33,003 nt of DNA from Methanobrevibacter sp. (GCA_017434555.1 JAFRFB010000026.1:1-33003), one strand, 5' to 3'. Positions 209-25,291 are shown, numbered from the stretch's first letter. Numbers and translations: made by a program. The notes: a model not told the origin generated them from the letters alone.

Positions 209-232
209 TGGTTGTTTACTAATATATTAAAC

Positions 233-2507: not shown

Positions 2508-2537
2508 TTTGTGGATCAGTTTCCACAAAACTTTTTT
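2508..2537 (+). terminator. Second hairpin plus T-run between convergent genes
   Basis: Perfect eight-base arms (TTTGTGGA and TCCACAAA) enclose a six-base loop and are followed by TTTTTT at 2532-2537. The T-run reaches the stop codon of the minus-strand phosphopantetheinyl transferase gene, so the site separates the two convergent units. Confidence 0.6.
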
Positions 2538-3178
2538 CAATCAAAATCATATGTAAGTGCATTGGAAGTGTATTTATCAAGTTTTTTTGTTTTAAAGTGT
2601 CCTGCGGATGCTAGTTTATATTCACCGACATCAAATAAGTTAAACTTAATATTTTCATCATTTTTTAGCTTTATATCATCATCAATGATTATTTCAAAGC
2701 TGTCCAAATCCAGATTGAATCCAAGACCTGTGTATTTCATATAGCTTTCCTTTAAAACCCAGTATCTGAAAAATTCATTTGAGGGATTGGAGGATTTCAT
2801 GATGTTTTCATATTCACTGTTGTAGAAGTAGTTCTTTGCTATGTTTAAATCGATTGTGGGGTCATTGTATTCAACATCAGCACCAATTTCCCTATCGGAT
2901 ATTGCACAGCAAACCATTTTCCCTGAATGGCTTACATTAAAGTAAACGTTTTCGTAATTGCAGATATATGCCTTGCCGTATTTTCCAGTTTCAAATTCGG
3001 GTTTTGTAATTCCCTCTTCATACAGTAAATTTTGAAGAAGCAAATACGCACCGCAGCTGAGCTTTTTGTCCTTTTCAAATCTGTAAAAATCAATTTTTTC
3101 CTTTCTTTTATCTGAAACCAGTTCATAACCCTTTTTCAAGTCAAGGTTTTCCACATTACAGTAAGCTATTCTAATCAT
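2537..3178 (-). CDS. Sfp-type 4'-phosphopantetheinyl transferase
   Basis: The 213-residue protein transfers the phosphopantetheine arm of coenzyme A to the conserved serine of carrier domains, which turns an apo-NRPS into its active form. The family signatures are present in order: NVSHSG (81-86), IGADVE (98-103, metal-binding acidic residues) and WVLKESYMK (140-148, with catalytic Glu and Lys). The length suits the Sfp/Gsp group rather than the short AcpS group. The gene overlaps the upstream phosphatase gene by 8 nt (start inside CATGATTAG), so the two are translationally coupled. The nearby NRPS, with five carrier domains, is the obvious client. Having it cotranscribed with a signalling phosphatase suggests that NRPS activation follows the same switch. 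Substrate range cannot be read from the sequence. Confidence 0.95.
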   Translation of the reverse strand: MIRIAYCNVENLDLKKGYELVSDKRKEKIDFYRFEKDKKLSCGAYLLLQNLLYEEGITKPEFETGKYGKAYICNYENVYFNVSHSGKMVCCAISDREIGADVEYNDPTIDLNIAKNYFYNSEYENIMKSSNPSNEFFRYWVLKESYMKYTGLGFNLDLDSFEIIIDDDIKLKNDENIKFNLFDVGEYKLASAGHFKTKKLDKYTSNALTYDFD

Positions 3179-5069
3179 GTCTATCCAAAAGCACTATGGT
3201 CATATCATCAAATTGATCGTTAGAGCCTGTAAATTCATCAATATCTTTCAACAGTTTATCAATTATTTTATTTTCAAAAGGATGACTGTTTAAAAAGTCA
3301 ATTAACTTGTCTTCACCATAAAACTCATCATTTGGATTTTTGGCATCGGTTATTCCATCAGTATAAACGATTATTCCTTTAGACATTTCTGTCTCTTCTT
3401 TTACAAATTCAAAGTCTTCCATAACTCCCAAAACAATTCCCGGACTGACTTTTAAAGGTTTAAATTTTCCATCTTCCATAATCAATGGTGCTTCATGTCC
3501 GGCATTGGAAAAAGTCAAATTATTCGTTTTGTTATTGTAAATTCCAAGCCATAATGTCACAAACATTAACTCCGAGTTATTTTCACATATCTGGTTATTG
3601 AGTAAATAGAGGACTTTTGAAGGATCTTTTTCGCTTTTAAGCAATTGCTTGATAATTGACTGGGCAACGGTTGAAAGTATTGCTGCAGGTATTCCTTTTC
3701 CTGAAGCGTCACCGATTACTATAGCTACATTATCATCGTCCAGTTCATAATAGTCATAAAAGTCTCCACCAACTTCTTTTGCAGGCTGGCTGAATCCAAA
3801 AATGGAATAGTTTTCTTTTTCTATGCTTCCGGTTGGAAGATTTGATTTTTGAATTTTCTCGGCAATACTTAATTCCGCTTCAATCCTATGCTTTTCACCT
3901 TCAATCTTGTGAATATTTTCAATATATTCGTTTGTATAATTGATTAAGGATGTGTAACTTCTGGCAAGCATTCCAATTTCGTCATCTTCATTAATATACT
4001 TCGAATAAACTTTAACCAATCCGTCTGATTCGATTCTATCTCCCTTTTTAATGAATTTTTCAATTCTCGAAAATGAAACAATCGGGTCGATTACATTATT
4101 TTCAATGTATTTCAGGACTAAAATGGATGGTATGAAATATATGATGAAAAGTATATCCATCATCAGGAAAACAAGTATCATGATTTCATCAATATTTATT
4201 GGGAGGTATAAATCTAGAGCGGTAATCAGTACCTCATCTGATGCGACAATATAACCTATAACCAGAATAATCAATGATGTTACAAGAAAGATGTTCATTA
4301 TTTTTTCAGGGATTCTGTTATATGGAATTCTTGTTATTTCTCTATTAATAGGCTTTGTCAGATATAAAACGAGCAATGCCATAATTATTAATATTTCTAC
4401 AATCATTATTCCTACATTTGATCCCAAATAAAAATCCGTTGCTCCTACAAAAAGTGTTGTGATAACCAATAATGCGCCAAGTATTTTATATGTCTTTTCA
4501 TTTAATTTTTCCTCATATTTTTCAGGAACATGGATAAAATCAATATATTTTGAAAGTAAAATTCCAATGATTCCGAATATGAATGCAGTATTGACAAAAT
4601 TAATGAAATATCTGACTCCAACTAGAAAAGAAATTTGTATGGTCTCCGGTTGAAATATATAGAAGAGTTTTTTATTTATCAGCGAATAGATTGCTGCACA
4701 TAACAGTATTATTCCAATGAATACAATCATTTCGCTGGTTCCGTTTAATTTTGGAGTCGTGATTATTTTTCTTGATTTGAACTTCTCATACCACAGTTTG
4801 TATGCTAAAGTGGCGATGAATAAACTTATGACTTCTGAGGTAATTGTTAAGCCTACACTGTATCCTCGGATAAAATCACATAGAGTATTTCCTAAAACCG
4901 CTCCCAGAGCACCATATGGTCCGAAAAGCAGGCCTGATATAAATAGTATTCCCAAATGGGGTGAATATCCTTCAGCAAAATTCTTGCTTATGGCAAAATA
5001 AAAAGTACCTAAATTAATTATAATCATTAATAGGAACGGTACTAATATTTTTTTAAGATTTTTATTCAT
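3171..5069 (-). CDS. Membrane-bound RsbU/SpoIIE-type PP2C serine phosphatase
   Basis: This 632-residue protein has about eight to ten hydrophobic segments in residues 1-320, a HAMP-like linker (about 320-385, ending in DEIGMLARSY), a short coiled coil (385-410) and a C-terminal PP2C/SpoIIE phosphatase domain. The metal-binding acidic residues are visible in GGDFYD (434-439), GDASGKG (453-459), YTDGITDA (569-576) and FDDM (620-623). In bacteria such enzymes dephosphorylate a STAS antagonist protein, which then captures the kinase. The STAS protein at 24992-25291 is the likely substrate. The membrane part looks like a sensor, but its signal is unknown. Its start codon overlaps the stop of the RsbW-like gene (TAATG), and its end overlaps the PPTase gene, so all three form one operon. 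Confidence 0.93.
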   Translation of the reverse strand: MNKNLKKILVPFLLMIIINLGTFYFAISKNFAEGYSPHLGILFISGLLFGPYGALGAVLGNTLCDFIRGYSVGLTITSEVISLFIATLAYKLWYEKFKSRKIITTPKLNGTSEMIVFIGIILLCAAIYSLINKKLFYIFQPETIQISFLVGVRYFINFVNTAFIFGIIGILLSKYIDFIHVPEKYEEKLNEKTYKILGALLVITTLFVGATDFYLGSNVGIMIVEILIIMALLVLYLTKPINREITRIPYNRIPEKIMNIFLVTSLIILVIGYIVASDEVLITALDLYLPINIDEIMILVFLMMDILFIIYFIPSILVLKYIENNVIDPIVSFSRIEKFIKKGDRIESDGLVKVYSKYINEDDEIGMLARSYTSLINYTNEYIENIHKIEGEKHRIEAELSIAEKIQKSNLPTGSIEKENYSIFGFSQPAKEVGGDFYDYYELDDDNVAIVIGDASGKGIPAAILSTVAQSIIKQLLKSEKDPSKVLYLLNNQICENNSELMFVTLWLGIYNNKTNNLTFSNAGHEAPLIMEDGKFKPLKVSPGIVLGVMEDFEFVKEETEMSKGIIVYTDGITDAKNPNDEFYGEDKLIDFLNSHPFENKIIDKLLKDIDEFTGSNDQFDDMTIVLLDRHD

Positions 5070-5443
5070 TATTCCACTTTTTTAATTATTTTCAAATGGT
5101 TTTGGCCATTTTCATAAGTATATGTTATTTCATCAGCATAATTTTTCGCAAGTAATATTCCAAGCCCTCCAACTTGAGCTTCGTCTAAGCTTTTTGGAGT
5201 TTCAGGATCTTCTTTTAAAGTAGGGTCAAACTGAATTCCATTGTCAATGAATTCTATTGTTAAATAATTCTCGGATTCTACATTGACAATAATATATTCT
5301 GCATTTGAATAATTAACTATATTTACGAAAATTTCTTCAACAATCAGTTTAAGCGTCATGTCTTTGTTTGGATAATGTTCCTCAATGAATTCATTAAGCA
5401 CATATAATTGTTCCAAATCCACTTTCAATTTCAATGAGTTCAT
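5069..5443 (-). CDS. RsbW-like anti-sigma-type serine kinase (HATPase)
   Basis: The 124-residue protein is a single GHKL ATPase domain of the RsbW/SpoIIAB size. The ATP-binding boxes are in order: N-box EEIFVNIVNYS (36-46), G1 DNGIQFDP (67-74) and G2 GGLGILLAK (92-100). In bacteria such kinases hold a sigma factor or phosphorylate a STAS partner. Archaea have no sigma factors, so here the partner must be something else. The gene is first in the operon with the phosphatase and PPTase. A TATA box just upstream leaves a very short leader. The name 'anti-sigma factor' would mislead here. Confidence 0.92.
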   Translation of the reverse strand: MNSLKLKVDLEQLYVLNEFIEEHYPNKDMTLKLIVEEIFVNIVNYSNAEYIIVNVESENYLTIEFIDNGIQFDPTLKEDPETPKSLDEAQVGGLGILLAKNYADEITYTYENGQNHLKIIKKVE

Positions 5444-5466
5444 GATTATTACTTATGTTATTTTGT

Positions 5467-5479
5467 TCATATATACCTT
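5467..5479 (-). promoter_or_regulatory. TATA box of the kinase-phosphatase-PPTase operon
   Basis: On the minus strand GGTATATATG lies about 25-35 nt before the ATG at 5443. It is the only good TATA element for the three-gene operon. Confidence 0.5.
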
Positions 5480-5549
5480 TTTTAATGATTTGAAAAATAA
5501 TCAATCGACAATATTTTGTATTCTTTTCCTAAATCAAATAGAATAATTT

Positions 5550-5575
5550 TATAGTATACTATAATATATATTAAT
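5550..5575 (+). promoter_or_regulatory. Palindrome overlapping the TATA region of the adhesin-like gene
   Basis: TATAGTATACTATA (5550-5563) is a perfect 14-base palindrome. It runs directly into a TATA-like stretch (ATAATATATATTA), about 30 nt before the likely transcript start and 60 nt before the ATG. It could be an operator, or part of the divergent promoter region shared with the kinase operon. Confidence 0.4.
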
Positions 5576-5621
5576 GTGTTTAATTTTTAGTTAAATCATG
5601 CTAATTTCATGGGGAGATATG

Positions 5622-7528
5622 ATGAATTCAAAGAAATGTTCGTTGATTGCTTTATCTGTATTTCTGATTTTGCTCGTATTTGTTTCATCAGCAAGCGCTG
5701 CTGATAGTGATAAAACAACAGAGTTATTATCAGCTGATGAATCAGTCAGCCTGTAAAATGATGATGTGCTCACATTAGATATTGTATCTGGTGACAATAA
5801 TGTTTTAGAAAATGCAAATGAAACTCAATTTCTGAATTTTGATGGTGCTGTGCCGGAAAGCTCAACTGGTGATGACGTTTTTTCCAAAGGCACAAATTCA
5901 CAACTAGGTGTATCCGCTTCTCCTAGTCCGGATAAGAAGAATTTAACGATTAACGCAACAGCTGATCCTATTTATGTTGATGATACTGCTATTGTTTTTG
6001 TCACCGGTTTGGAGAATGCTACTGGTAAGGTTTATGTTGATATCGGTTCCGTTGTTTATTTCGGCTATATCAATGAAGGTGTTGCCAGTGTTATTGTTTA
6101 TGGTGTAGTTGAAAATACTACTGCAAATGTAACTTATGACGGTGATGAAAATTATAATCCCGCTTCCACCAATGTTACAATTATTGTTTATCCTTTCCCT
6201 AAAATAGATACAAATATTTCTATTGTAGTTTCGGATGATTATGTAAGTGAAAGAAAAACCGTTAATATAAGATTTCCGGGTTCTTATGATATTGGGGGAA
6301 ATATTACAGTTATTTTAAACAATGAAAGTAGAACATTTGACATGAAAGATGCTGAAACTATTGCAATTATGGATTACTTCTATGTATTGGTTAGATATGC
6401 GAATTTAACGGTGGGCAATTATATTGTTGAAGCGTTTTATTATGGTGATGACCATTATCTTCCATCAAATGCAAGTGGTAAATTTTCAATATATCCTAAG
6501 GAAAACCTTACAATGAATATTAGTGCTTCTCCGGTTATAGAAGGTCAAAATGTTACTATTGATGTGGAATTAGTTAAAGATGCTATTGTTGCTAATGTTA
6601 CTGCCACTGTTGATGGTAAGAATTTCACTTTCAATGTTGTACGTTCTGATGTTAAAATCATCATCCCGGATTTGGCTGCCGGTAATTATACTGTTCCTGT
6701 ATCCTACTCAGGTAATTTTAAGTATAATCCTGTAAGCCAGGATGTAAACATTAGTGTTTTACCAAAACCGGATGTTAACATTGTAGCGGATAATGTAAGC
6801 AAATACTATGGCGGTTCTGAAAGATTTGTTGCAAACATATATGACTCAAATATGAATCCTATTGCAAATAAATCCGTAAATATTACCATTAACGGCGTTA
6901 CCTATACCAGAACTACCAATGAAAATGGTACTGCTAGTTTGGCTCTCAGATTAAACCCAGGACATATTATGTTACTACTCAGCTTGATGATGTTAGTGCA
7001 GACTCAACTGTAACCATATTGTCAACTATAGAAAGTGCAGATCTCACCAAATATTATAGAAACGAAACACAATTCACCGTTCAGGTATTTGGTACTGACG
7101 GTAAGGCTGTGGGTGCTGGTGAAAAAGTAACATTCAACGTTCACGGCATATTATACACACGTACAACCAACGAATCAGGCATTGCTAAATTGAACATTAA
7201 CCTTGAACCTGGCCAATACATTATCACAACAAGTTACAATAATTGCAATGTTTCAAATAACATTACTGTTTCACCTGTTTTAAACGCAAGTGACCTTTCA
7301 ATGAAATATATGGATGGATCTCAGTTTAAAGCTACTTTGCTTGACGGCCAGGGTAAACCTTGTGCAGGACAGAATATAACTTTCAATATCAATGGAGTAT
7401 TCTATGACAGGTTAACTGACAGTAACGGTGTGGCTAACTTGAACATCCGCTTAATGGTCGGTGAATATATTATTACTTCCAGTTACAATGGTTGTAATGT
7501 TGCAAATACAATAACTATTACTTCTTAG
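5622..7528 (+). pseudogene. Adhesin-like secreted Ig-repeat protein, broken by a stop codon and a frameshift
   Basis: The gene starts at ATG 5622 after a GGGGAG site, with a clear signal peptide (MNSKKCSLIALSVFLILLVF, then VSSASAAD). After 44 codons an in-frame TAA follows CTG, and the same frame then continues (NDDVLTLDIVSGD) to about 6960. There the reading frame shifts after LRLNPG; one missing base near 6960-6965 restores YYVTTQLDDVSADSTVTI and the rest to 7528. The repaired protein would be about 635 residues, made of Ig-like beta domains of 80-100 residues with recurring cores such as ITINGVTYTRTTNENGTA and LNIRLMVGEYIITSSY. The last three domains match those in the surface protein at 31.6-33.0 kb. 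The role in the family is cell-surface adhesion. Sequencing error is possible, but two independent lesions favour real decay. Confidence 0.8.
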
Positions 7529-7556
7529 TTGAGATTATTTCTCAGCTATTTTTTTC
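7527..7556 (+). terminator. Terminator of the adhesin-like pseudogene
   Basis: Eight-base arms AGTTGAGA and TCTCAGCT (one G-U pair) with a five-base loop are followed by a T-run. The arm overlaps the stop codon. It separates the adhesin-like unit from the NRPS. Confidence 0.65.
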
Positions 7557-7629
7557 TATTTTTTCATAATACTATTCAAAAAAATTTCATTTTATTATCA
7601 TTTAACGCTAATTTATGTACTTTCATAAC

Positions 7630-7693
7630 AAGATTTATTTATTTTAATAATCATAATTTTAAATGATTGTATAATTTATATGATAGTGATATT
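7630..7693 (+). promoter_or_regulatory. Candidate NRPS promoter and ribosome site
   Basis: An AT-rich TATA-like element (GATTTATTTA, about 7632-7641) would give a start near 7660. AGTGAT (7685-7690) lies three bases before ATG 7694, the same spacing as the strong GGAGGCGAT site of the STAS gene. This favours ATG 7694 over TTG 7667. Confidence 0.35.
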
Positions 7694-10600
7694 ATGATTG
7701 ATAATAATAAGAATTTTGAAAAACACTTTTTAAACCAAATTATGGATTTTGATGAGGCAACATTACTTAGCCCAAACCTTGGAGGCAGTGAAACTCCAAA
7801 ATTAGCCAAAAATGAATTTGAATTAAAATTTGATGAATTAGATGATTTTTGCAGTGAAAACCAAATATCAAAAGATATTCTCTTTTTAGCATGTGTCAAT
7901 ATTGCATTGAACAAGTTTAATTTCTCAGATAAAAACTTAATATTTCACGAAAACAATATCCCTTTCGCATGCGTTTTTGAAAATAGGGATATTTCAATTA
8001 AAGACTATTTCACCAAAATTAAAGAAATTTATGACGATAATTTAAGATACATCAACTGTCCTGTCGAAGGAATAATCAAGGATTATGGATTAAAGCCTGA
8101 ATTTTACTATTCATTCAACAAGGATTTGGATGTTGATTCCTTAAAATTCAAATATTCAACATATATGGACATTTTAGAAAGTGATGAAGGATTCATTTTG
8201 TCCATGTACTATAACAATCAATTATATTCACAATCATACGTCACTCTATTTTTGGAAAGCATACAAACAATCATAAATCATTTTGTTAATGAAGATATCA
8301 CTAAATTAACTCTATCAGACATATCACTTATAGAAGAATATGTAAATCTCCAGTTCGATGAAGTTGAACTTCCGTTTTTACATAAACGCTTTGAAAAGGT
8401 AGTTAATGAAAAACCTGATGATATAGCTCTTATTGCAAGTGACGCTACATTTACTTATACAGAACTCAACCAAAAAGCAAACCGTATTGCAAACGCCCTT
8501 ATTAAAAAAGGAGTCAGTCCAAAAAGCAATATTCTGGTAATGCTTCCAAGATCAAGTGATTTAATCGCATCAATGGTAGGTATTTTCAAGGCAGGATGCG
8601 CTTTTGTTCCTATTGATTTGGAATATCCGAAAGAAAGGATTAACTATATTTTTGAAAACAGTCAGGCTGACTACATTATTTCAGATAAAAGTGAAGGAAA
8701 TACCATAGATATTAAGGAACTGCTCAAAGAAGATGACGTTGAAAATCCTGACGTTGAAATGTCTCCTGAAGACTTGGTTTACATGATTTATACTTCAGGT
8801 TCTACCGGAAACCCTAAAGGAGTAATGATTTCACATAAAAACATATGTAATGAAATCAACAACCCTAAAACCGCTTACAGCAGCATATTATGTATTACAA
8901 CAATTTCCTTTGACGTAGCTATGGAGGATATTTTAACCTCTCTTGGTAATGGAATCAAGTTAATATTTGCCGATGACAGCCAGATTAAGGACATTCCTAA
9001 ATTAATCCAGTTAATTAATGAAAACCAACCTGAAGTAATGGATTTAACTCCATCAAGACTGGCTTCATATCTCGATGTCAATGCCTTCTGTGATGCCATT
9101 TCCTGCGTGAAATGTATGTTTTTAGGAGGAGAAGCATTCTCCACAAAAGTATATGAAACATTCAGAAAATACTCTGATGCTGTTGTCTATAACAGTTATG
9201 GCCCTACAGAAACTACAATCACTTCCAATAACAAGGTCATTACAGACATTAACGATATAACTGTAGGTTATCCTTTACCAAATTATATAACTGACGTAAG
9301 GGATATTGACGGAAAACTCTTGCCTTTCGGTGTAATGGGTGAACTGTACATCGGTGGTGTCGGTGTAGGTAAAGGTTACTACAACATGCCTGAAAAAACC
9401 GAAGAAGTATTCCTATCCATTAACGACATTCCATTTTACAGAAGTGGGGACTATGCAATCTCAAGAGAAGACGGTGAAATTGAGATTAAAGGAAGAATCG
9501 ATAACCAGATTAAGTTAAGAGGTTTAAGGATAGAAATCGGTGAAATCGAATCAAACATCAGCAAATATCCGTCAATAAAACAGGCGGCTGTTGTTATCAA
9601 AGAAATCAACAATAACGATCATTTATGTGCATATTATACTGCAGATGATAAAATCGATAAAAATGACTTAAAAGAATTCTTAAAAGACAGATTAACCAAA
9701 TATATGGTTCCGACTGCATTCATGCAGCTTGATGAAATGCCAAAAACTCCAAACGGAAAAACCGATTTGAAAGCATTGCCTCAGCCTAAATTGGATTTGG
9801 AAAATGAGGCTGCAGAAACAGAACTTGAACAAAAGTTATTCGATATCGCTTCTGAGTTATCAAATACTGATGAATTCGGTGTAACTGACGATTTATATGC
9901 AATAGGATTTACTTCACTTCTTTTAATGAAATTCAATGCAATAATCTATGAGGACTTTGGAGTTAACCTCGACATTGTTGAACTCCTGAATAATCCTACA
10001 ATCAGAAACATTGCAACCAGCATTGGAAACAATGAAGAGTCCGCAATTGATTTAAACGTTCTAATTGAATCTTCAAAAGATATTGAGTATTATCCGTTAA
10101 CTTCCAATCAGCTGGGTGTTTATTATGGATGCGCTCAAAATCCGGATGAAGCACAGTACAACCTTCCGGCAATGATAAGATTTGACAAGGATATTGATGC
10201 TTTAAAATTAAAAGAAGCTATTATTAAAACAATCAATGCATATCCTTATCTTAAAACCAGAATTGTTACACATGACGGTCAGCTGATGCTTAAACGTAAC
10301 GATTCAATTGAAATAGATGAAATTCCAATCGTTGAAGTAGACCAAATAACTACAGAAGAAATCGAAAAGGAAAATGTAGTAAGGTTTGAACTTCAGGAAA
10401 ACCAGTTATTCAGAGCTAAAATATATAATACTTCAACTGAAACAGTCCTATTCTTTGACATGCACCACATTATCACTGACGGTGAATCTCTAGATAATTT
10501 ATTCAATAACATTGCTCTTGCATATGAAGGCAATGAAATCGAAAAAGAGGCAATTGACGGTTATGTAAATGTCATGATTGAAAAATTGGATGAATCCAGT

Positions 10601-16600: not shown

Positions 16601-19600
16601 AGCAGTCTTGAAAACAGTGAGAAATACGAAGCAGCCAAGAAATTCTTCGATGACAAACTTTCACAGGAAATCGAATCCACAGTTCTAACTCCAAACCTTA
16701 ACGGAAACCCTGATGACGGAAAAGTCGAATTAATCAGCGACTCATTTGACTCATCAGACATTAATGAATTCTGTAAGGTCAATTCAGTCAGTCCTAATTC
16801 ACTATTCATGTCCGCATTCATCCTGGCATTGAATAAATACACATTCAGTGATGAAACGTTAATTACAACAATATTCAATGGAAGAACTGATCCTAATTAC
16901 TACAACACTCAGGGATTCTTGGTAAAAACACTTCCTTTAGTATTGAAAAGCGAAAACAGACAGGAAAGCATCAGGAATTTCATCAAAGATGTGGACCAAA
17001 TGTGGATTGACACAATAAACAACAGCATTTATCCATATACAAAGATTTCAGAAGAATATCAACTTAAACCTGAAGTCTTCTATTCATTCCAGGAAGGTGA
17101 CGATTCAGAAAGCGTTGTCATAAACGATAAGGAATATGAATCCTATGAACTGAATGCAAGTGTGGCTACTGAATATAAAATAGATTTATCAGTATTCAAA
17201 AAAGATTCCAGTGTCGATTTGGACATGCTGTATAATAATGAGCTCTATTCAAAGGATTATGTCGAATTGTTCATGAATTCATTCAAGGTAACATTGAATC
17301 AAATCATTGAAAACGACATTGATGAATTCAGAATCTGTGACGTTGAGCTGGAAACCACAAAAGGATTACCTACATTCACTCCTGTTGAAAATCCATTCAT
17401 CCACAAGAGATTTGAAAAGCATGTTGAGGAAAATCCTGAGGGCATTGCTCTTGTTACAAGCTCAGATTCACTGACTTTCGATGAACTTAACAGAAAGGCA
17501 AACCGCATAGCCAACGGACTTATCAAAAGAGGAGTAAGACCAAAAAGCAATGTCCTGATAATGCTTCCGAGGACAAGCGATTTGATTGCTACAATTTTAG
17601 GTATTTTAAAAGCCGGATGTGCATTGATTCCTGTTGATATGGAATATCCTAAAGAAAGAATCGATTACATCTATGAAAACAGTCAGGCAGATTACATTAT
17701 TGCCAGTGAAACTACAGGAAATTCCCTTAACGTTAAGGAATTGCTTGAAGAGGAAAATGACATAAATCCTGACGTTGCAATTACCAAAGACAACCTGTCC
17801 TACATGATTTACACTTCAGGTTCTACCGGAAACCCTAAAGGTGTAATGATTTCCCATGAAAACGCATGTAACCAGGTTGAAGGAAATCCTAAATGCGAAT
17901 ATGACAATCTATTAAGTATTGCAACAATTGCATTCGACACATCACTGGAAGATATCTTAACAGGTCTTACCAATGGTATTAAGATAATCTTTGCAAATGA
18001 TTCAGAGATTAAAAACATTGTAGACCTGATTGAATTGATTAGAGAGTATCAGCCACAGGTAATGGAATTCACTCCTTCAAGGTTACTGTCCTATCTGGAA
18101 GTTGATGACTTCTGTGATGTAATAAAATGTGCCAAATGTATCGTTATGGGTGGGGAACAGTTCTCAGCCAAAGCGTTCAATGGCGTGAAACGTTATGCTG
18201 ACGCTGTTGTTTATAACAGTTACGGACCGACCGAAGCAACAATCGCATCAAACTATAAGGCAATCACCGATCCGGAAAACATCACTGTCGGTAAGGCACT
18301 TAAAAACTATGTAACAGAAGTAAGGGATATTGACGGAAAACTTCTCCCTCAAGGTGTAATGGGTGAACTGTACATCGGTGGTGTCGGTGTCGGTAAAGGA
18401 TACTACAACATGGAGGAAAAGACCCAAGAGGTCTATCTAACCATTAATGACATTCCTTATTACAGAAGTGGGGATTATGCAATAGAGCTTCCTGACGGTG
18501 AAATAGACATTAAGGGAAGAATCGATAACCAGATTAAACTTAGAGGTTTAAGAATAGAAATTGGTGAAATCGAATCAAACATTTCCAGATTCCCTGCAAT
18601 TACACGTAACATTGTTGTTATTAAGGAAATCAACGGTACCGAACACTTATGCGCCTACTTCACTGCTGATTCAGAAATAGACATCAAGCTATTGAAGAGA
18701 TATCTGAACAGTAAATTAACTAAATACATGGTTCCTACAGTATTCATACAGATTGATGAAATGCCTCAAACTCCAAATGGAAAAACTGATTTAAAAGCTC
18801 TTCCAGAGCCTTCATTGAATTTAAATCATGTTGAAGCAGAAACCGAAACTGAAAAGTTAATATTCAAAATAGTCTCTTCATTGACTGATGTTGAAGACTT
18901 CGGAGTAACTGACGATTTATACGCATTAGGTTTCACCTCTTTGACTTTAATGAAATTGAATTCACTGATTTACAATGAAACGGATGTCAATATTGAAATA
19001 ACTGATTTGTTCAACAGTCCAACTGTACAAAGCCTTGCAGATAAGATTGACAACAACATTGACACTCAGGTCGATTTGGATGAAGTTACAAAGACTGCTG
19101 AAAGCATGGAATACTTCCCATTGACTACCAATCAGTTAGGTATTTACTATGAATGTGCTCAAAGTGATGAAATAAAATACACTATGCCTTCAGCAATAAG
19201 GTTTGACAGCAATATTGATCCTGAAAAACTTAGGGCAGCTATTATTGAAACCATTGAAGCACACCCTTATCTTAAAACAAGAATTATCACTACTCCTGAA
19301 GGAGAATTGAGACAGAAAAGATGTGATGATGCTGAAATCGATGAGATTGAAATTGTTGAAATCGATTCAATCACAGATAGGGAAATAATGGACAGGGACA
19401 TTAAATACATTCCATTGGATGACAATCAGCTGTTCAGATTCAAAATATATAAAACTTCAATGGAAACAGTTCTTTTCCTTGATTTCCACCATATCATTAC
19501 AGACGGTGTTTCACAGGACCTTCTCTTTGAAGACATAATCAACGCCTACGAAGGAAAAGAATTGAATTCAGAAATCGTTGACGGATTTGTCTACAGCCTT

Positions 19601-22600
19601 ATCGAGCAGGAACTAAGCGACAATGAAGTCTCCAAAGCTTACTATCAAAATAAGTTTGCACAAGGTTTCGAATCCACAGTACTGACTCCAAACCTCAATG
19701 GAAATCCTGATGAGGCTAAAATCAAACTCATTGAAGATACGATGGACTCAACATTTGTAAGGCTTTTCTGTAAGGACCATTCAATAAGTCCAAACGTATT
19801 ATTCATGTCTGCAACATTTTTAGCACTCAACAAGTTCACCTTCTCTGACAAGGCATTGATAACAACCATTTTCAACGGAAGGTCAAACTCAAATTACTTT
19901 GACACTCAGGGTATGCTTGTTAAAACCCTTCCTCTCATGGTAAGTGGTGAAAACAGAGAAATGATGATTGAAGATTTCATTAAAGTTGTGGATAAAAGCT
20001 GGAAAGATTCATTAGTCCACAGCAATTACTCCTACACTACACTTTCCGAGGAATATCAGTTGAAACCTGAATTCTTCTACGCATATCACGGGGCATTCGA
20101 AGCTGACAATGTTGAACTTGAAGGCAAGACTTATGAAATGATTGACCTTGACGGTACCGTTGCAACAGACTATAAGATAAATATGGATGTATTCGATGAC
20201 GGCGAGTCAATAAGCCTTTACATTGAGTATAATGACCAAATCTATTCCGAAGATTATGTCACTAAATTCCTCAATGCCGTCAAACATATTCTCTTCCAGT
20301 TCTTCATTAATGACATGGACAAATTGAGAATCAGCGACATTGAACTTGCATCCAAATTCGAATTGGTTGAATTTGAAGAGGTCGTTAATCCGTTCCTCCA
20401 CAAACGTTTCGAAGCACAGGTCGAGAAAAAGGCTGATGAAATCGCTCTTGTTGCAGAAGAGAAATTAACATATAAAGAGCTTAACGAAAAGGCAAACCGT
20501 ATTGCAAACGCACTTATCAAAAAGGGTGTTAATCCGAAAAGCAATATTTTGATAATGCTTCCTCGTAACAGTGACCTGATTGCTTCAATAATCGGTGTAT
20601 TAAAAGCAGGTTGTGCATTCATACCACTCGATTTAAAGTTCCCTAAAGAAAGAATTGAATACATCTATGATAACAGTCAGGCAGATTACATAATAAATGT
20701 AGATGGCAGCACTATTAATTCCATTTCCATCAATGAATTGCTTGAAGAGACGGATGTCACAAATCCTGGTGTTGAAATTTCCAAGGATGACCTTTCATAT
20801 ATGATTTACACTTCAGGTTCTACTGGAAATCCTAAAGGTGTAATGATTTCCCATGAAAATGCATGTAACCAGGTTGAAGGAAATCCAAAGGCAGAATACA
20901 GTAATTTATTAAGTATTGCAACAATTGCATTCGATACATCCTTAGAGGATATTTTAACCGGTATTACAAACGGTATTAAGATAATATTTGCTAATGATGA
21001 TGAAATAAAAAGCATTGTTGAGTTAATAAGACTTATTAAACGTGAAGAGCCTGAGGTAATGGAATTCACTCCATCAAGATTACTCTCATATCTTGAATTT
21101 GAAGAGTTCTGTGATGTAATCGGATGTGCAAAATGTATTGTCATGGGTGGAGAGCAGTTCTCAGCAAAAGCATTTGACGGTGTTAAAAAATACTGTGATG
21201 CTCATGTATACAACAGTTACGGACCGACCGAAGCAACAATTGCGTCAAACTATAAGGAAATAACTGATCCTGAAAACATTACTATCGGTAAGGCTTTAAG
21301 AAATTATATAACTGAAGTAAGGGATATTGACGGAAAACTCCTCCCACAGGGCGTAATGGGTGAACTGTACATCGGTGGTGTTGGTGTAGGTAAAGGTTAC
21401 TACAACATGGAAGACAAAACCAGGGAAGTTTACCTTACAATCGACGATATTCCGTACTACAAGAGTGGGGATTATGCAATAGAGCTTCCTGACGGTGACA
21501 TTGACATCAAGGGAAGAATCGATAACCAGATTAAGCTAAGAGGTTTAAGAATTGAAATCGGTGAAATCGAATCCAACATTTCCAATTTCCCTAACATAAA
21601 ACAGAACGTTGTTGTAATTAAGGAAATACGTAACAACGAGCATTTATGCGCATACTTCACTGCAGAAGAGGAAATCAACAAGGATGAGCTTAAGGAATAC
21701 TTATCAGAAAGACTTACACAGTATATGGTTCCTACGGTCTTCATGCAGATAGATGAGATGCCGCAGACTCCAAACGGAAAAACTGATTTGAAAGCACTTC
21801 CTGAACCTAAACTCGAGTTCAATTACGTTGCTCCTGAAACCAAACTGGAACAGGCAATATGTGCTATATACTCATCAATATTGGATGTTGAAATTGTCGG
21901 TGCAGAGGATAACTTCTTTGAAATAGGTGGTACTTCACTTATCGCATCAAAACTTATCATTGAGCTTTTAAAACGGGATTATGACGTAAAATATGATGAT
22001 ATATTCAAAAATCAGACTCCAAGAAAATTGGCCAATTTCCTTTCTGGTGAAGGTATTTCAGATGACCTGGACGTTGACATCATTGAAAACTATGATTACA
22101 CTAAAATTGACAGTCTTCTTGAAGAAAACACCTTTGAAAACTTTGCAATGGGTGAAAATACGGCTCTTGGCAATGTCTTGCTTACTGGTGTTACCGGATT
22201 TTTAGGAATTCACATACTGTATGAATACATCAAGAATGAAACCGGAACGCTTTACTGTATGCTTAGAAAAGGAAGCTTTGACTCATGTGAAGAACGTCTA
22301 GCTGATTTGATGAATTATTACTTCGATGAGGACTTCACTGACCTTATAGGATCACGCATTATCCTTTCAGAAGGTGACATTACAAACGGTGATGACTTCA
22401 AGAAATTTGAAGACTATCCTATTGATACATTAATAAACAGTGCAGCTATCGTAAAACATTACACTCACGATGATTACATCTTCAGGGTTAATGTTGACGG
22501 TGTTGTTAACGGACTTGAATTTGCAGAGGCAAATAACATCAAATACGTTCAGATATCAACAACCAGTGTCATTGACGAGTATCTTGAGGATACTGATGTT

Positions 22601-23266
22601 TCTGATGTCGTATGTGATGAAAGAACACTGTATTGGGGACAGGATTTATCCAACAAATACCTGAACAGTAAGTTCCTCGCAGAAAGAATGGTGCTTGAAA
22701 AGGCTGTAAACGGTTTGGATGTAAAGATTGTCAGGGTAGGTAACCTTATGGCACGTTACTCAGACGGAGTCTTCCAAAAAAACTTCGATACCAATGCATT
22801 CCTCAACAACATCAAGGCCATTAAGAACTTGAAGGCGATAAATCCAAGTTTGGCCGGCGAAATTGTTGAAATAAGTCCTATCGATTACGTTGCAAAAGCA
22901 ACTCTTCTCCTGTCAACGGCACCGAAAGAATCAACTATTTTCCACTGTGAAAATGAGAAACTGATTCCTACTCAAAACATCATTGATGCATTGAATACAT
23001 TCGGATTTGACATTAGAAATGTTTCCTCAGAGGAATTCAAGGAAATCTATGAGCAGAACATGGATGAAAACATTCAGGGTATAATCACTGCCGATTTGAC
23101 ATTGGATGATTTGGACTTTGAAGACGACGGTGATGACGGCAACATTGTAAAAATGGATCAGACATTGGATATCCTTGATTCACTTGGATTTGAATGGCCG
23201 GTTATAGATGAAAATTATCTTAAACGCTTTATTGAACATTTAAATGAGGTAAATTATTTTGATTAA
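7694..23266 (+). CDS. Five-module nonribosomal peptide synthetase with terminal thioester reductase
   Basis: This 5190-residue enzyme assembles a peptide on phosphopantetheine arms in the cytoplasm. Order: a half condensation domain (1-220, without HHxxxDG), A1, T1, then four C-A-T modules, then a reductase. The C active sites HHxxTDG lie at 924, 1924, 2930 and 3932. Each A domain has YTSGSTGNPKG and YGPTE motifs. Carrier serines are at about 741, 1740, 2746, 3749 and 4748. The reductase has TGVTGFLG (4831-4838) for NADPH and YLNSK (Y4989, K4993). There is no epimerase or thioesterase, so a linear L-peptide released as an aldehyde or alcohol is expected. By eye the A-domain codes are DVEDFGSIT, DVDEFGSIT and DTEEVGSIA three times. 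The two acidic pocket residues suggest basic substrates such as Orn or Lys; that is inference. T1-T4 have GFTSL/GYTSL, whereas T5 has the usual GGTSL. MatE follows after 11 nt. Confidence 0.97.
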   Translation: MIDNNKNFEKHFLNQIMDFDEATLLSPNLGGSETPKLAKNEFELKFDELDDFCSENQISKDILFLACVNIALNKFNFSDKNLIFHENNIPFACVFENRDISIKDYFTKIKEIYDDNLRYINCPVEGIIKDYGLKPEFYYSFNKDLDVDSLKFKYSTYMDILESDEGFILSMYYNNQLYSQSYVTLFLESIQTIINHFVNEDITKLTLSDISLIEEYVNLQFDEVELPFLHKRFEKVVNEKPDDIALIASDATFTYTELNQKANRIANALIKKGVSPKSNILVMLPRSSDLIASMVGIFKAGCAFVPIDLEYPKERINYIFENSQADYIISDKSEGNTIDIKELLKEDDVENPDVEMSPEDLVYMIYTSGSTGNPKGVMISHKNICNEINNPKTAYSSILCITTISFDVAMEDILTSLGNGIKLIFADDSQIKDIPKLIQLINENQPEVMDLTPSRLASYLDVNAFCDAISCVKCMFLGGEAFSTKVYETFRKYSDAVVYNSYGPTETTITSNNKVITDINDITVGYPLPNYITDVRDIDGKLLPFGVMGELYIGGVGVGKGYYNMPEKTEEVFLSINDIPFYRSGDYAISREDGEIEIKGRIDNQIKLRGLRIEIGEIESNISKYPSIKQAAVVIKEINNNDHLCAYYTADDKIDKNDLKEFLKDRLTKYMVPTAFMQLDEMPKTPNGKTDLKALPQPKLDLENEAAETELEQKLFDIASELSNTDEFGVTDDLYAIGFTSLLLMKFNAIIYEDFGVNLDIVELLNNPTIRNIATSIGNNEESAIDLNVLIESSKDIEYYPLTSNQLGVYYGCAQNPDEAQYNLPAMIRFDKDIDALKLKEAIIKTINAYPYLKTRIVTHDGQLMLKRNDSIEIDEIPIVEVDQITTEEIEKENVVRFELQENQLFRAKIYNTSTETVLFFDMHHIITDGESLDNLFNNIALAYEGNEIEKEAIDGYVNVMIEKLDESSEEFIASEKYFHDQLTQEVDSTILTPNLNGNVEEGKLKSLYKDINVDLIKEFCSEMRISPNVLFMAGTILTLNKYTFSDKTLITTIFNGRSNPNYFNTQAFLVKTIPILSINEDRNITVRQLLTQMDEIWKDSIKHSNYPYTKLAEEFQLKPEFMYTYNNLDSEKIQISGKTYEVSYLESLETNYKITLDVNESEDNLQLFISYNDQLYSEDYIKTFLNSILNTLAQFMENDIEKLLINEIELNRDYEIPVFTPVENPFIHKRFEKQALENAEGTAIVACDDTLTYAEFNEKANRIANALIKKGVTPGNNVLVMLPRTTDLIASIMGILKAGCAFIPIDLEYPKERIDYIYENSQADYIISDTDDDNSLNISDLLKEEDTANPDVEMSKDDTAYMIYTSGSTGNPKGVMISHENICNQVQNPKSTYESLLCLATISFDVSIDDILTSLSNGLKLILASDTQIKNIPELIKLINDEKPEVSEVTPSRLASYLEVDDFCRAIDCLKCVFMGGEQFSTKVFETFRKYSDAVVYNSYGPTETTITSNNKEVTDVNDITVGPPLYNYVTDVRDIDGKLLPLGVMGELYIGGVSVGKGYYNMPEKTEEVFLSINDIPYYRSGDYAIARSNGEIDIKGRIDNQIKLRGLRIEIGEIESNITKYPSIKQAVVVIKEINNNDHLCAYYVADEKIETASLKEFLKDKLTKYMVPTAYTQLDEMPHTPNGKTDLKALPEPELDLDYVKPENETEQKLFDIASDLINTDKFGTTDDLYTIGFTSLILMKFNSLIYEEMQVNLDISVLFNNPTIKKLANEVAGTSDDGSDLSEVIEMAKGMDYLPLTENQLGVYYECIQSPGEIRYTLPTTIRFDSSVDADKLKESVIKAIETHPYLKTRIIMDSEGEIKQKRNDDAPIDEIEIVEVSTISDDEIIENDVRPFSFGDEQLFRFKIYKTQEDIVLFFDIHHTITDGVSQISLFDDIASIYENREISEEIVDGYTYSLLESYLVDSDKYREAKRFFDDKLSQEIESTVLTPNLNGNLDEGKLKSVTEIIDPKNIKEFCNENSLSQNAVFLSGLALSLNKYTFSDKTLITTIFNGRSNPYYFNTQGFLVKTIPLVFNNENRQVSIKEFINYVDETWKDTMNNSIYPYTKIAQEYQLKPEFFFTYQEFLESEDIVIDGKVYEEKELVNDDIIATEYKINFDIFVFEDNIELNIEYNDELYSEEYIKQFLDSFKLVLNQFMENDIKDLMICDVELETTKELPTFTPVETPFIHKRFEAQVSENPQNIALVATDATLTNEELNKKANRIANALIKKGVQAKSNILAMLPRDSNLIATIIGILKAGCTFIPIDLEYPKERIDYIYRNSQADHIITVDGKADNALNIYELLEEENTTNPDVDITPDDLAYMIYTSGSTGNPKGVMIGHKNACNQAEGNPKCEYDNLLSIATIAFDTSLEDILTGITNGIKIIFANDSEIKNIVDLIALIKEHKPEVMEFTPSRLLSYLEIDEFCDVIGCAKCIVMGGEQFSAKAFDGVKKYTDAHVYNSYGPTEATIASNYKEITDPNNITIGKALKNYVTEVRDIDGKLLPQGVMGELYIGGVGVGKGYYNMPEKTEEVYLSINDIPYYKSGDYAIELPDGDIDIKGRIDNQIKLRGLRIEIGEIESSINKYPNVKQAVVVIKEINNNDHLCAYFTAEEEIDKDSLKEFLKERLTYYMVPTVFMQLDEIPQLPNGKTDIKRLPEPKLKLENVKPENETEQKLFDIVSGLIENDGFGTTDDLYAIGYTSLTLMKLNTLIYKEMDVNLDISVLFNSPTIKKLAEEILNNSDQKSELNELIEMSETIEYFPLTENQLGIYYECMQSPGEVKYTMPSVARFGNDVDAQKLKEAIIKTVEAHPYIKTRIITTDDGSLKQFRDDDAEIDEIEIVDIPAISDDEIAANDVKAFSFGDEQLFRFKIYKTPEETVMFSDFHHIITDGESQGLLFEDIAKAYQNEAIEEETVNGYVFSLIESSLENSEKYEAAKKFFDDKLSQEIESTVLTPNLNGNPDDGKVELISDSFDSSDINEFCKVNSVSPNSLFMSAFILALNKYTFSDETLITTIFNGRTDPNYYNTQGFLVKTLPLVLKSENRQESIRNFIKDVDQMWIDTINNSIYPYTKISEEYQLKPEVFYSFQEGDDSESVVINDKEYESYELNASVATEYKIDLSVFKKDSSVDLDMLYNNELYSKDYVELFMNSFKVTLNQIIENDIDEFRICDVELETTKGLPTFTPVENPFIHKRFEKHVEENPEGIALVTSSDSLTFDELNRKANRIANGLIKRGVRPKSNVLIMLPRTSDLIATILGILKAGCALIPVDMEYPKERIDYIYENSQADYIIASETTGNSLNVKELLEEENDINPDVAITKDNLSYMIYTSGSTGNPKGVMISHENACNQVEGNPKCEYDNLLSIATIAFDTSLEDILTGLTNGIKIIFANDSEIKNIVDLIELIREYQPQVMEFTPSRLLSYLEVDDFCDVIKCAKCIVMGGEQFSAKAFNGVKRYADAVVYNSYGPTEATIASNYKAITDPENITVGKALKNYVTEVRDIDGKLLPQGVMGELYIGGVGVGKGYYNMEEKTQEVYLTINDIPYYRSGDYAIELPDGEIDIKGRIDNQIKLRGLRIEIGEIESNISRFPAITRNIVVIKEINGTEHLCAYFTADSEIDIKLLKRYLNSKLTKYMVPTVFIQIDEMPQTPNGKTDLKALPEPSLNLNHVEAETETEKLIFKIVSSLTDVEDFGVTDDLYALGFTSLTLMKLNSLIYNETDVNIEITDLFNSPTVQSLADKIDNNIDTQVDLDEVTKTAESMEYFPLTTNQLGIYYECAQSDEIKYTMPSAIRFDSNIDPEKLRAAIIETIEAHPYLKTRIITTPEGELRQKRCDDAEIDEIEIVEIDSITDREIMDRDIKYIPLDDNQLFRFKIYKTSMETVLFLDFHHIITDGVSQDLLFEDIINAYEGKELNSEIVDGFVYSLIEQELSDNEVSKAYYQNKFAQGFESTVLTPNLNGNPDEAKIKLIEDTMDSTFVRLFCKDHSISPNVLFMSATFLALNKFTFSDKALITTIFNGRSNSNYFDTQGMLVKTLPLMVSGENREMMIEDFIKVVDKSWKDSLVHSNYSYTTLSEEYQLKPEFFYAYHGAFEADNVELEGKTYEMIDLDGTVATDYKINMDVFDDGESISLYIEYNDQIYSEDYVTKFLNAVKHILFQFFINDMDKLRISDIELASKFELVEFEEVVNPFLHKRFEAQVEKKADEIALVAEEKLTYKELNEKANRIANALIKKGVNPKSNILIMLPRNSDLIASIIGVLKAGCAFIPLDLKFPKERIEYIYDNSQADYIINVDGSTINSISINELLEETDVTNPGVEISKDDLSYMIYTSGSTGNPKGVMISHENACNQVEGNPKAEYSNLLSIATIAFDTSLEDILTGITNGIKIIFANDDEIKSIVELIRLIKREEPEVMEFTPSRLLSYLEFEEFCDVIGCAKCIVMGGEQFSAKAFDGVKKYCDAHVYNSYGPTEATIASNYKEITDPENITIGKALRNYITEVRDIDGKLLPQGVMGELYIGGVGVGKGYYNMEDKTREVYLTIDDIPYYKSGDYAIELPDGDIDIKGRIDNQIKLRGLRIEIGEIESNISNFPNIKQNVVVIKEIRNNEHLCAYFTAEEEINKDELKEYLSERLTQYMVPTVFMQIDEMPQTPNGKTDLKALPEPKLEFNYVAPETKLEQAICAIYSSILDVEIVGAEDNFFEIGGTSLIASKLIIELLKRDYDVKYDDIFKNQTPRKLANFLSGEGISDDLDVDIIENYDYTKIDSLLEENTFENFAMGENTALGNVLLTGVTGFLGIHILYEYIKNETGTLYCMLRKGSFDSCEERLADLMNYYFDEDFTDLIGSRIILSEGDITNGDDFKKFEDYPIDTLINSAAIVKHYTHDDYIFRVNVDGVVNGLEFAEANNIKYVQISTTSVIDEYLEDTDVSDVVCDERTLYWGQDLSNKYLNSKFLAERMVLEKAVNGLDVKIVRVGNLMARYSDGVFQKNFDTNAFLNNIKAIKNLKAINPSLAGEIVEISPIDYVAKATLLLSTAPKESTIFHCENEKLIPTQNIIDALNTFGFDIRNVSSEEFKEIYEQNMDENIQGIITADLTLDDLDFEDDGDDGNIVKMDQTLDILDSLGFEWPVIDENYLKRFIEHLNEVNYFD
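14880..21500 (+). repeat. Near-identical A-domain blocks in modules 3, 4 and 5
   Basis: The adenylation segments near 14880-15500, 17880-18500 and 20875-21500 share long runs of identical DNA, for example around ATTAAGTATTGCAACAATTG and GGTGTCGGTGTAGGTAAAGG. Their substrate-pocket residues are the same. The five YTSGSTG motifs are spaced very evenly at about 3.0 kb. Modules 1 and 2 are related but differ in the pocket region. This shows recent duplication or gene conversion within the gene. Confidence 0.75.
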
Positions 23267-23277
23267 AGGGTGAATAT

Positions 23278-24960
23278 ATGAATTTTAAAATTGCAGACAG
23301 TAAATTTAAGGAACTTTTATTGCCGACACTGCTTATTGTCATGGCTTTAAACGTAAGCGCTGTTGTCGATTCATTTTTCGTCGGCGCTTACATAGGCAAG
23401 AATGCGGTTGCAGCATTGGAAGTTTTAGAGCCTATGATTTTATTGATAACTGTTGTGGAATGGCTTTTCGGACTTGGTGGTCAAATTTTAGCATTGAATA
23501 AAAAATCAGAATTTGATATTGAAGGAAGTAACCGTTACTTCACGGCATCAATTGCATCTTCTTTGGTTGTTTCATGTATACTTGCTTTTGTTTGTTTATT
23601 TTTCATGGACCCTTTAAGTAGTCTTTTAGGTGCTTCCCCAACTATAAAACCTCTTGTAATGGATTATTCACATGGATTGTATGGATGTTTCATCGTATCT
23701 ACTATTGCAGGGGTATTGGCCCAATATATTCGTGTGGATGGTCAGCCGAACTTTGCATCAGTGGTAATTATTGTAGCTAACTTAGTCAATGTATTTTTGG
23801 ACTTTGTATTTTTGGATTTGATGGGTTTAGGCATGGCTTATGCATCCCTTGCAACATTCATTGGGTATAGCGTAGGTATTATTGTATGTATAAAATATTT
23901 CCGTGATTCAAGAAGAACATTCAGATTTATCAAATCTGCACTTAAAATAAAAACCTGGGTTAAAACTACCTGGGAAATGACCAAAGTAGGGTTCCCTGGT
24001 GCAAGTATCGGATTTTTCGATTTGGTTTTCGTTTATGTATTGAATATTTTCCTTGTATCAACTTTAGGAGACACTGGATTAACTACATATATGGTATGTA
24101 TGGACGCATTGGTAATTGCAAGTATTATTGATATTGGAATTGCAGAAACGCTTACGTCTATTGTCCCAATTTATTATACAAAGCACGATTATGTTAATTT
24201 AAATCATTTGATTAGGACTTCGCTTATAATAACTGTAATTTTTGCAACGCTGTTTGTTGCTTTCCTGTGGATATGGCCTCAAGGATTTTTAGCCCTTTAC
24301 GGCTTTAATAATTCTGATATTGCAGGATTTATAATAAATGCACTTAGATTGTACTCAATATTCTTTGTCGCTTCAATACTTCCTAACATGCTGATATTTT
24401 ATTATGAAGCTATTGAAAGATCAACGATTTCAACAATATTTTCAATCATCTTCACTCTTGTGATGCCGTTGTCTTGCATATACCTCTTGTATCAGCTTAT
24501 AGGGTCTAATGGAATTTGGATAGCATTTACAGTTGCATCAATAATCACATTTGCTATCATTTTCGTAACTGTCATGGCAATTCAGAAAAGAGATAAAAAA
24601 TACAGCGGATTGTTCTTCATTGAAAAGGATTTGATTCCTAAAACCAGAAACTATGTACTTACAGACAATGATGTGGCTGCAAGAGAAGAATCATTACAGC
24701 ATCTTAAAAGTTTAAACGCTTCAGATGAGTTCTGTGATAATGTCAATAAGATGTTTGATGCAATCTTTGACACGAATGAACACGGTACCTATGTAGAGAT
24801 GCTGGTTATAGATTACGATGACAATGTCCACGTTGACGTCAAGTACGATGGAGAAAAAGAAAACCTTGAAATCATCAAAAAGAAATTCCCTGAAAATCTT
24901 TTCAAATATGCTGAGGTTTTAGGTTTTAACAATATTGAATATGTGATGGATAAAAGCTAA
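23278..24960 (+). CDS. MatE-family efflux transporter with an extra C-terminal domain
   Basis: The 560-residue protein has about twelve hydrophobic segments in residues 1-436, arranged like MATE multidrug and metabolite exporters, which use an ion gradient. It has a ribosome site GGGTGA and starts 11 nt after the NRPS stop, so the two are cotranscribed and the peptide is the likely cargo. The unusual part is a soluble tail of about 124 residues (437-560) that ordinary MATE proteins of about 450 residues lack. Its core (VNKMFDAIF, then YVEMLVIDYDDNVHVDVKYDG) parallels the helix-strand-strand order around the N-box and G1 box of the RsbW-like protein at 5069-5443, but the ATP-binding residues are not kept. 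A degenerate HATPase-like docking domain is my inference. Confidence 0.93.
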   Translation: MNFKIADSKFKELLLPTLLIVMALNVSAVVDSFFVGAYIGKNAVAALEVLEPMILLITVVEWLFGLGGQILALNKKSEFDIEGSNRYFTASIASSLVVSCILAFVCLFFMDPLSSLLGASPTIKPLVMDYSHGLYGCFIVSTIAGVLAQYIRVDGQPNFASVVIIVANLVNVFLDFVFLDLMGLGMAYASLATFIGYSVGIIVCIKYFRDSRRTFRFIKSALKIKTWVKTTWEMTKVGFPGASIGFFDLVFVYVLNIFLVSTLGDTGLTTYMVCMDALVIASIIDIGIAETLTSIVPIYYTKHDYVNLNHLIRTSLIITVIFATLFVAFLWIWPQGFLALYGFNNSDIAGFIINALRLYSIFFVASILPNMLIFYYEAIERSTISTIFSIIFTLVMPLSCIYLLYQLIGSNGIWIAFTVASIITFAIIFVTVMAIQKRDKKYSGLFFIEKDLIPKTRNYVLTDNDVAAREESLQHLKSLNASDEFCDNVNKMFDAIFDTNEHGTYVEMLVIDYDDNVHVDVKYDGEKENLEIIKKKFPENLFKYAEVLGFNNIEYVMDKS

Positions 24961-24992
24961 ATATTAATTATTTAGCTTTAAAATTCTTTTTT
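24956..24992 (+). terminator. Terminator after the NRPS-MatE operon
   Basis: Perfect eight-base arms GCTAAATA and TATTTAGC enclose TTAAT, and a T-run follows up to 24992. The first arm contains the MatE stop codon. The convergent STAS gene ends at the same place. Confidence 0.7.
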
Positions 24993-25291
24993 TACTGAAT
25001 ATCTAGGATATTATCTAATCCAGATACTTTAATAATGTCTTTTATCATATCTGGGGAATTAATGATTTTGAATGGTATTGATTGAGGTTGTAATTTCTTT
25101 TGTGTCATGATTAGGACTCTCAATCCTGCACTTGAAATGTATTCCAGTTTTTCAAAGTCAAGAATCAGTGAATCGAATTTTCCCATTTCATCGTTGATTT
25201 CATTTTCAAAATCCGGAGCAGTAACTGTATCAATCTGATTGTCTACTTTGATAGTTAATTCCTTATCATTATAAATTTTTTCAACATTCAT
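24992..25291 (-). CDS. RsbV-like STAS anti-sigma-factor antagonist
   Basis: The 99-residue protein is a lone STAS domain. The phosphorylation loop is visible as YISSAGLRVL (about residues 50-59), with the serine that RsbW-type kinases modify and RsbU-type phosphatases restore. In bacteria the unphosphorylated form binds the kinase and frees its target. The kinase and phosphatase partners are encoded across the NRPS at 3171-5443. It lies convergent to MatE and is monocistronic, with its own TATA box and one of the best ribosome sites in the window (GGAGGCGAT, three bases before the ATG). It completes the partner switch; the output in an archaeon is unknown. Confidence 0.93.
   Translation of the reverse strand: MNVEKIYNDKELTIKVDNQIDTVTAPDFENEINDEMGKFDSLILDFEKLEYISSAGLRVLIMTQKKLQPQSIPFKIINSPDMIKDIIKVSGLDNILDIQ

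Follow-up and report, generated by a model that had tools for sequence, protein, structure and literature searches.

Why do anti-sigma kinases and their antagonists persist in archaea without sigma factors, and what could these proteins control beside a nonribosomal peptide synthetase (NRPS)? The question is raised by a locus on contig C9 of a Methanobacteriaceae genome that lies near Methanobrevibacter millerae in our exporter tree; the whole stretch of DNA analysed, 33,003 nucleotides, is called the window here. Both the regulation and the products of methanogen NRPSs have been described as unclear (PMC5467289). The cluster consists of the following features:

2537-3178, minus strand: PPTase (4'-phosphopantetheinyl transferase, priming of NRPS carrier domains; PF01648, 4.9e-14)
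3171-5069, minus strand: membrane sensor and SpoIIE/PP2C serine phosphatase, RsbU/SiaA-like (PF07228, 2.3e-46)
4035-5069, minus strand: N-terminal membrane sensor part of the phosphatase, residues 1-345, possibly ECF S-component-like (AlphaFold2 and Foldseek)
5069-5443, minus strand: stand-alone GHKL Ser/Thr kinase, RsbW/SpoIIAB-like, 124 residues (HATPase_c_2, PF13581, 3e-13)
7667-23266, plus strand: NRPS, 5199 residues, with 5 A, 4 C, and 5 T domains and a terminal NAD_binding_4 reductase
23278-24960, plus strand: MATE exporter, whole gene (PF01554)
23278-24612, plus strand: MATE exporter core (PF01554, 5e-19, two stretches)
24613-24957, plus strand: C-terminal tail of the exporter, 115 residues, predicted degenerate anti-sigma-factor (RsbW/SpoIIAB) domain (AlphaFold2, Foldseek, hhalign)
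24992-25291, minus strand: STAS protein, RsbV/SpoIIAA-like (PF01740, 1.3e-13)
25130-25132, minus strand: codon of S54, the candidate phosphoserine of the STAS protein

All six genes are real, and the arrangement described in the original prediction, with a kinase-phosphatase-PPTase operon on one side of the NRPS and MATE genes and a STAS gene on the other, is confirmed; its interpretation is partly supported and can be sharpened. The PPTase and phosphatase genes overlap by 8 nt and the phosphatase and kinase genes by 1 nt, the NRPS and MATE genes are separated by 11 nt on the plus strand, and the STAS gene is convergent with the MATE gene, with 31 nt between them. The only other STAS genes in the genome are that of a sister cluster on contig C81 and one large 434-aa STAS ORF, and the window STAS is therefore the matching partner of the kinase and phosphatase. 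In the sister cluster, phosphatase, kinase, and STAS (57%, 49%, and 53% identical between the two clusters for kinases, phosphatases, and STAS proteins, respectively) form one tight operon, with overlapping STAS and kinase genes; a 2194-aa NRPS gene and, behind it, a MATE gene run divergently from this operon. STAS and kinase genes are neighbors there, as in most relatives, so that the natural trio is contiguous and the position of the window STAS on the far side of the NRPS is an unusual bracketing. A search of the 5766-7528 region beside the window kinase found no STAS remnant; the expected site, between kinase and NRPS, is occupied by a Big_3_5 adhesin-like gene (plus strand) broken into two frames. 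A TnpB/Cas12f-like (OrfB_IS605) gene (212-1402, plus strand) also lies close to the cluster, near the contig start. Because the NRPS terminates in a thioester-reductase-type NAD_binding_4 domain (within 21400-23266, plus strand), its product is likely released as a peptide aldehyde or alcohol.

A similar arrangement in Methanobrevibacter ruminantium M1, pointed out beforehand, is real: clusters mru0066-0071, mru0351-0352, and mru0512-0516 contain NRPS, MatE, serine phosphatases, anti-sigma antagonist, anti-sigma kinase, and PPTase genes (Leahy et al., 2010, PMC2812497). The last domain of mru0068 is called a thioesterase in the text of that paper and a thioester reductase in its Figure S8 legend. 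The authors proposed regulation of expression and, unlike us, reported no domain in the MatE tail; the anti-sigma-factor fold of the exporter tail is what is new here relative to the 2010 description.

The kinase, STAS protein, and phosphatase are supported as a complete predicted partner-switching set, as had been claimed, with catalytic and acceptor residues intact in the window and in 72-131 relatives. The N-box E and N, the G1 D and G, and the G2 box GGxG are present in the window kinase and in 72/72 stand-alone relatives, all 75 STAS proteins keep an SS[AS]GL loop with a phosphorylatable serine, and the catalytic motifs of the phosphatase, including the aspartates, are conserved in about 128/131 relatives (about 98%). 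The window STAS scores 61.5 bits with TIGR00377, above the cut-off of that family, and the other two proteins fall far below the equivalog cut-offs of the classical systems (kinase, 23.5 bits vs 145 for RsbW; phosphatase, 45.7 bits vs 490.8 for SpoIIE). The best NCBIfam match of the phosphatase is SiaA (3.7e-13), although its score of 48.9 bits is well short of the cut-off, 700. The set thus resembles RsbU-RsbV-RsbW and SpoIIE-SpoIIAA-SpoIIAB of Bacillus in its PP2C phosphatase, its STAS protein with a conserved serine, and its GHKL kinase; it differs in having no sigma factor, in having an anti-sigma-type domain fused to an exporter, and in including a PPTase and an NRPS. A non-sigma output has a precedent in SiaABCD of Pseudomonas aeruginosa, which likewise combines a membrane PP2C phosphatase, a kinase, and a STAS-like protein, SiaC, whose direct binding activates an enzyme (PMC7647112, PMC8457831). 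However, the enzyme there is a diguanylate cyclase, the phosphorylated residue of SiaC is a threonine, and neither exporter nor NRPS takes part; Pfam scans found no diguanylate cyclase among the window cluster genes, which do not constitute a SiaABCD system.

The signal may enter through the membrane part of the phosphatase. Its AlphaFold2 model is confident (pLDDT 91.5, pTM 0.91), and its top five PDB neighbors by Foldseek are the ECF S-components RibU and ThiT (prob 0.63-0.97; TM-score by target 0.55-0.63; E 0.7-2.2), so a ligand-binding sensor is offered as a lead only. In three loci (L132:7574-9943, L133:13349-15559, and L162), phosphatase and kinase are fused into one protein.

What would such a switch act on? 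The absence of a sigma factor, which had made another target necessary, was borne out: a PF04542 search that was positive on bacterial controls returned a single match from the genome of the window, and this lay below cut-off (E 6e-4). Among the three targets guessed beforehand (exporter tail, NRPS, or transcription factor), the exporter tail turns out to be an anti-sigma-type domain itself. The window exporter is a MATE by its two MatE domains (PF01554) and its placement in the tree. Ordinary MATEs of this genome are 421-467 aa long and untailed, whereas those linked to synthetases are 559-605 aa long and tailed; for another two MATEs with a tail or part of one (C54 and C82), the stretch read contains no NRPS. 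An AlphaFold2 model of the window tail (pLDDT 94.1, pTM 0.87) was compared with the PDB by Foldseek, and ranks 1-17 were all SpoIIAB, UsfX, or RsbW (E from 2.4e-5), mostly crystallised with their STAS partner, and outranked every histidine kinase listed. A profile of 37 tails matched the window kinase by hhalign (prob 96, E 1.5e-9), and the A1 profile of the exporter tail gave 0.011-0.019 against SpoIIAB. Pfam gave no HATPase match when run on the window tail alone, and the homology is reached through relatives, profile, and fold: the tail of the C81 exporter, which aligns with the window exporter over its full length at 31% identity, matches HATPase_c_2 directly and also matches its own neighboring kinase (2e-5). 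The window tail is thus an anti-sigma-type domain, even in its degenerate form.

The tail has the RsbW/SpoIIAB fold without the nucleotide-binding and kinase motifs. Because the G2 box GGxG is never kept (0/46 tails vs 72/72 free kinases), the tails look like pseudokinases. The N-box and G1 are retained in most tails and lost in those of the window clade, and because these residues are gone, window-type tails may also have lost STAS binding. Purifying selection nevertheless acts on the tail, also in the degenerate window type, and in the closest relatives it equals or exceeds that on the core (dS is saturated in this comparison and the ratios are rough). Tail conservation is 75-80% among the closest window relatives, against 67-76% for the exporter core, and between L016 and L263/L265 tail identity is 84-86% against 62-63% for the core; in more distant window-type pairs (L141 and L144), however, conservation of the tail falls below that of the core. 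A tail that stays constant while the core changes is consistent with a shared partner, and under such selection it does not look like a remnant. In the single-contig genome G019, exporter and tail are split into two frames of 486 and 92 aa (L268:1818-3553).

A tree built from MATE cores, with the tail left out, places 38/38 tailed MATEs in one clade (support 98/90) that spans Methanobacteriaceae and Clostridia, and the window core groups with tailed MATEs only. The clade comprises an archaeal NRPS-linked group (n=25), an archaeal group linked to GH3 that branches within Clostridia, and further lines from Clostridia; on this topology, a single fusion event followed by spread between the domains of life would be the simplest reading. 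In the bacterial class around the clostridial contig L307, 25/391 genomes have a tail match at 1e-15, and 30/33 such matches lie in reading frames of 570-673 aa, identified as MATEs by size only. Searching plasmids by tblastn with an archaeal exporter returned mostly untailed MATEs, plus a tailed copy on the Selenomonas ruminantium plasmid pSRC2 (L276). There (10712-16387 and 22084-23316) a glutamate-cysteine ligase-like gene precedes the tailed MATE, and the plasmid also carries a 452-aa hypothetical, a short kinase-like ORF, and a protein that resembles methyltransferases and has STAS at its end, possibly another small-molecule cluster with this type of exporter. A partial parallel to the fusion is found in SLC26/SulP transporters (PMC8256260), which also bear a domain from the anti-sigma and anti-anti-sigma world; theirs is a C-terminal STAS, whereas here the kinase-fold partner is fused, to a MATE exporter. 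In the literature searched, whose coverage is incomplete, we found nothing relevant on MATEs with an anti-sigma or HATPase domain, on MATEs together with SpoIIE or STAS, or on exporter outputs of partner switches, and the tailed MATE appears to be an unrecognised transporter architecture of gut Clostridia and methanogens.

These observations make a partner-switching variant with exporter output probable. We give a probability of roughly 0.55 to a circuit that governs the export of small molecules and couples export to synthesis, rather than acting on transcription. The membrane phosphatase would sense a signal, perhaps a small ligand held in its S-component-like domain, and dephosphorylate the STAS protein, which we infer would then dock on the anti-sigma-like tail of the exporter. 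The tail would serve as a pseudokinase docking platform, standing where bacteria have an anti-sigma factor with its bound sigma factor, and docked STAS might open the exporter (or close it, if the sign is reversed) or hold it together with the synthetase, until the stand-alone kinase phosphorylates the STAS protein and so releases it from the tail. It is an even bet that, more specifically, a post-translational switch gates natural-product exporters through this fused pseudokinase, in a clade common to Clostridia and Methanobacteriaceae, with STAS shuttling between the exporter and a kinase that is sometimes carried by the synthetase, coupling synthesis and export. Such a circuit would give concrete, testable answers to two questions: why anti-sigma kinases and antagonists persist where sigma factors are lacking, in archaea, and how methanogen NRPSs are controlled. 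If the tail does gate export, the anti-sigma fold has been re-used as a transporter-control domain, and a general control point would exist for the peptides and amides that rumen and gut microbes secrete.

The most serious competitor, though an unlikely one, is that the synthetase is the main target, bound by STAS or kinase, and that the tail is only a membrane anchor, which would bring product formation to the exporter. GH3-family amide synthetases (PF03321) are accompanied by the same set in L121, L124, L125, and L128, and in L118 (13768-15903), L119, L120, and L198 the GH3 protein carries an intact kinase domain at its C-terminus (711 aa; GH3, 1.5e-63; HATPase_c_2, 3.5e-15), beside STAS and a tailed MATE; such fusions favor a synthetase target, as does the place of the PPTase in one operon with the window phosphatase and kinase. 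However, no NRPS seen in this analysis bears a kinase domain, and the tail sits on the exporter in nearly all clusters with either type of synthetase. Somewhat less likely still is that the tail dimerises with the stand-alone kinase, recruiting or inhibiting it at the exporter, and that STAS is a kinase substrate only. GHKL anti-sigma factors of the RsbW type form dimers, tail and kinase are homologous, and a mixed dimer with a tail that lacks the G2 box would have one active site. The trio gene nearest the exporter, however, is usually STAS (15/20 loci) and not the kinase (4), and in the Lachnospiraceae locus L277 STAS follows the tailed MATE by 12 nt while no kinase was recognised within 10 kb, both of which speak against this reading; the nearness of STAS also supports the proposed circuit.

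Partner switches usually end in transcription, and the trio might control transcription of the cluster through an archaeal regulator, leaving the tail as a passive remnant. Leahy et al. (2010) indeed assigned the M. ruminantium genes to environment sensing and control of NRPS expression (PMC2812497). We consider this improbable in view of the lack of any sigma factor match above cut-off, of the selection on the tail in the closest window relatives, and of the content of compact operons: none of L117 (NRPS-MATE-STAS-kinase-phosphatase), L125 (STAS-GH3-GH3-MATE-kinase-phosphatase), and L126 contains a recognised regulator gene. Neither does the bacterial cassette L307, which carries STAS, GH3, tailed MATE, phosphatase, and kinase genes at 35-62% identity to archaeal ones (STAS 62%, GH3 51%, MATE 45%). 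What these loci share is an enzyme that forms amides, or a small-molecule cluster, together with the exporter, and not a transcription factor.

Association with NRPSs holds at the level of genomes and is much looser at the level of loci. Among 139 genomes of the family, SpoIIE was found in 85, Condensation in 79, and a strong tail match in 73. SpoIIE and Condensation occur together in 73 genomes, singly in 12 and 6, and neither in 48 (Fisher p 4e-19); the corresponding counts are 70/3/15/51 for tail and SpoIIE (p 1e-20), which leaves three genomes with a tail and no SpoIIE, and 69/4/10/56 for tail and Condensation (p 2e-23), with relatedness ignored in all three tests. Because SpoIIE and Condensation co-occur in this way, the arrangement is more than chance. 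Around 119 phosphatase loci, by contrast, on contigs that are often short, a kinase lies within 5 kb of 76, STAS of 73, a PPTase of 47, an NRPS of only 35, and GH3 of 10 more, and several have no exporter or synthetase nearby. That mere neighbors without a functional link are involved, as this low count of NRPSs might suggest, is very improbable given the co-occurrence (p 4e-19 to 2e-23, relatedness ignored), operons conserved in both archaea and bacteria, and the fact that the tail belongs to the switch domains itself. The expected link between trio and NRPS thus stands for genomes, while at the level of loci the condition named beforehand as refuting it, a trio lying mostly away from NRPS genes, is partly borne out: the set is a dispersed, often trans-acting system and not an NRPS bracket as such.

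The genome of the window illustrates this, since only two trios against at least four tailed-exporter NRPS clusters (C9, C29, C81, and C86) imply some action in trans. A trio of its own for every NRPS cluster was considered and rejected, as C29, C74, C86, and C111 have none in the stretches read; on the tailed-MATE clusters C29 and C86, the trio must work in trans or not at all. Adjacent pairs of SpoIIE-type membrane phosphatases without the other parts are common, and several phosphatase sensors may feed one STAS-kinase pair; pairs with no kinase, STAS, or synthetase nearby are found in L138, L142, L143, L149, and L156. Near-identical NRPS/MATE stretches on two contigs of one genome (L022 and L023; G000:C86 and C126) are perhaps an assembly duplicate.
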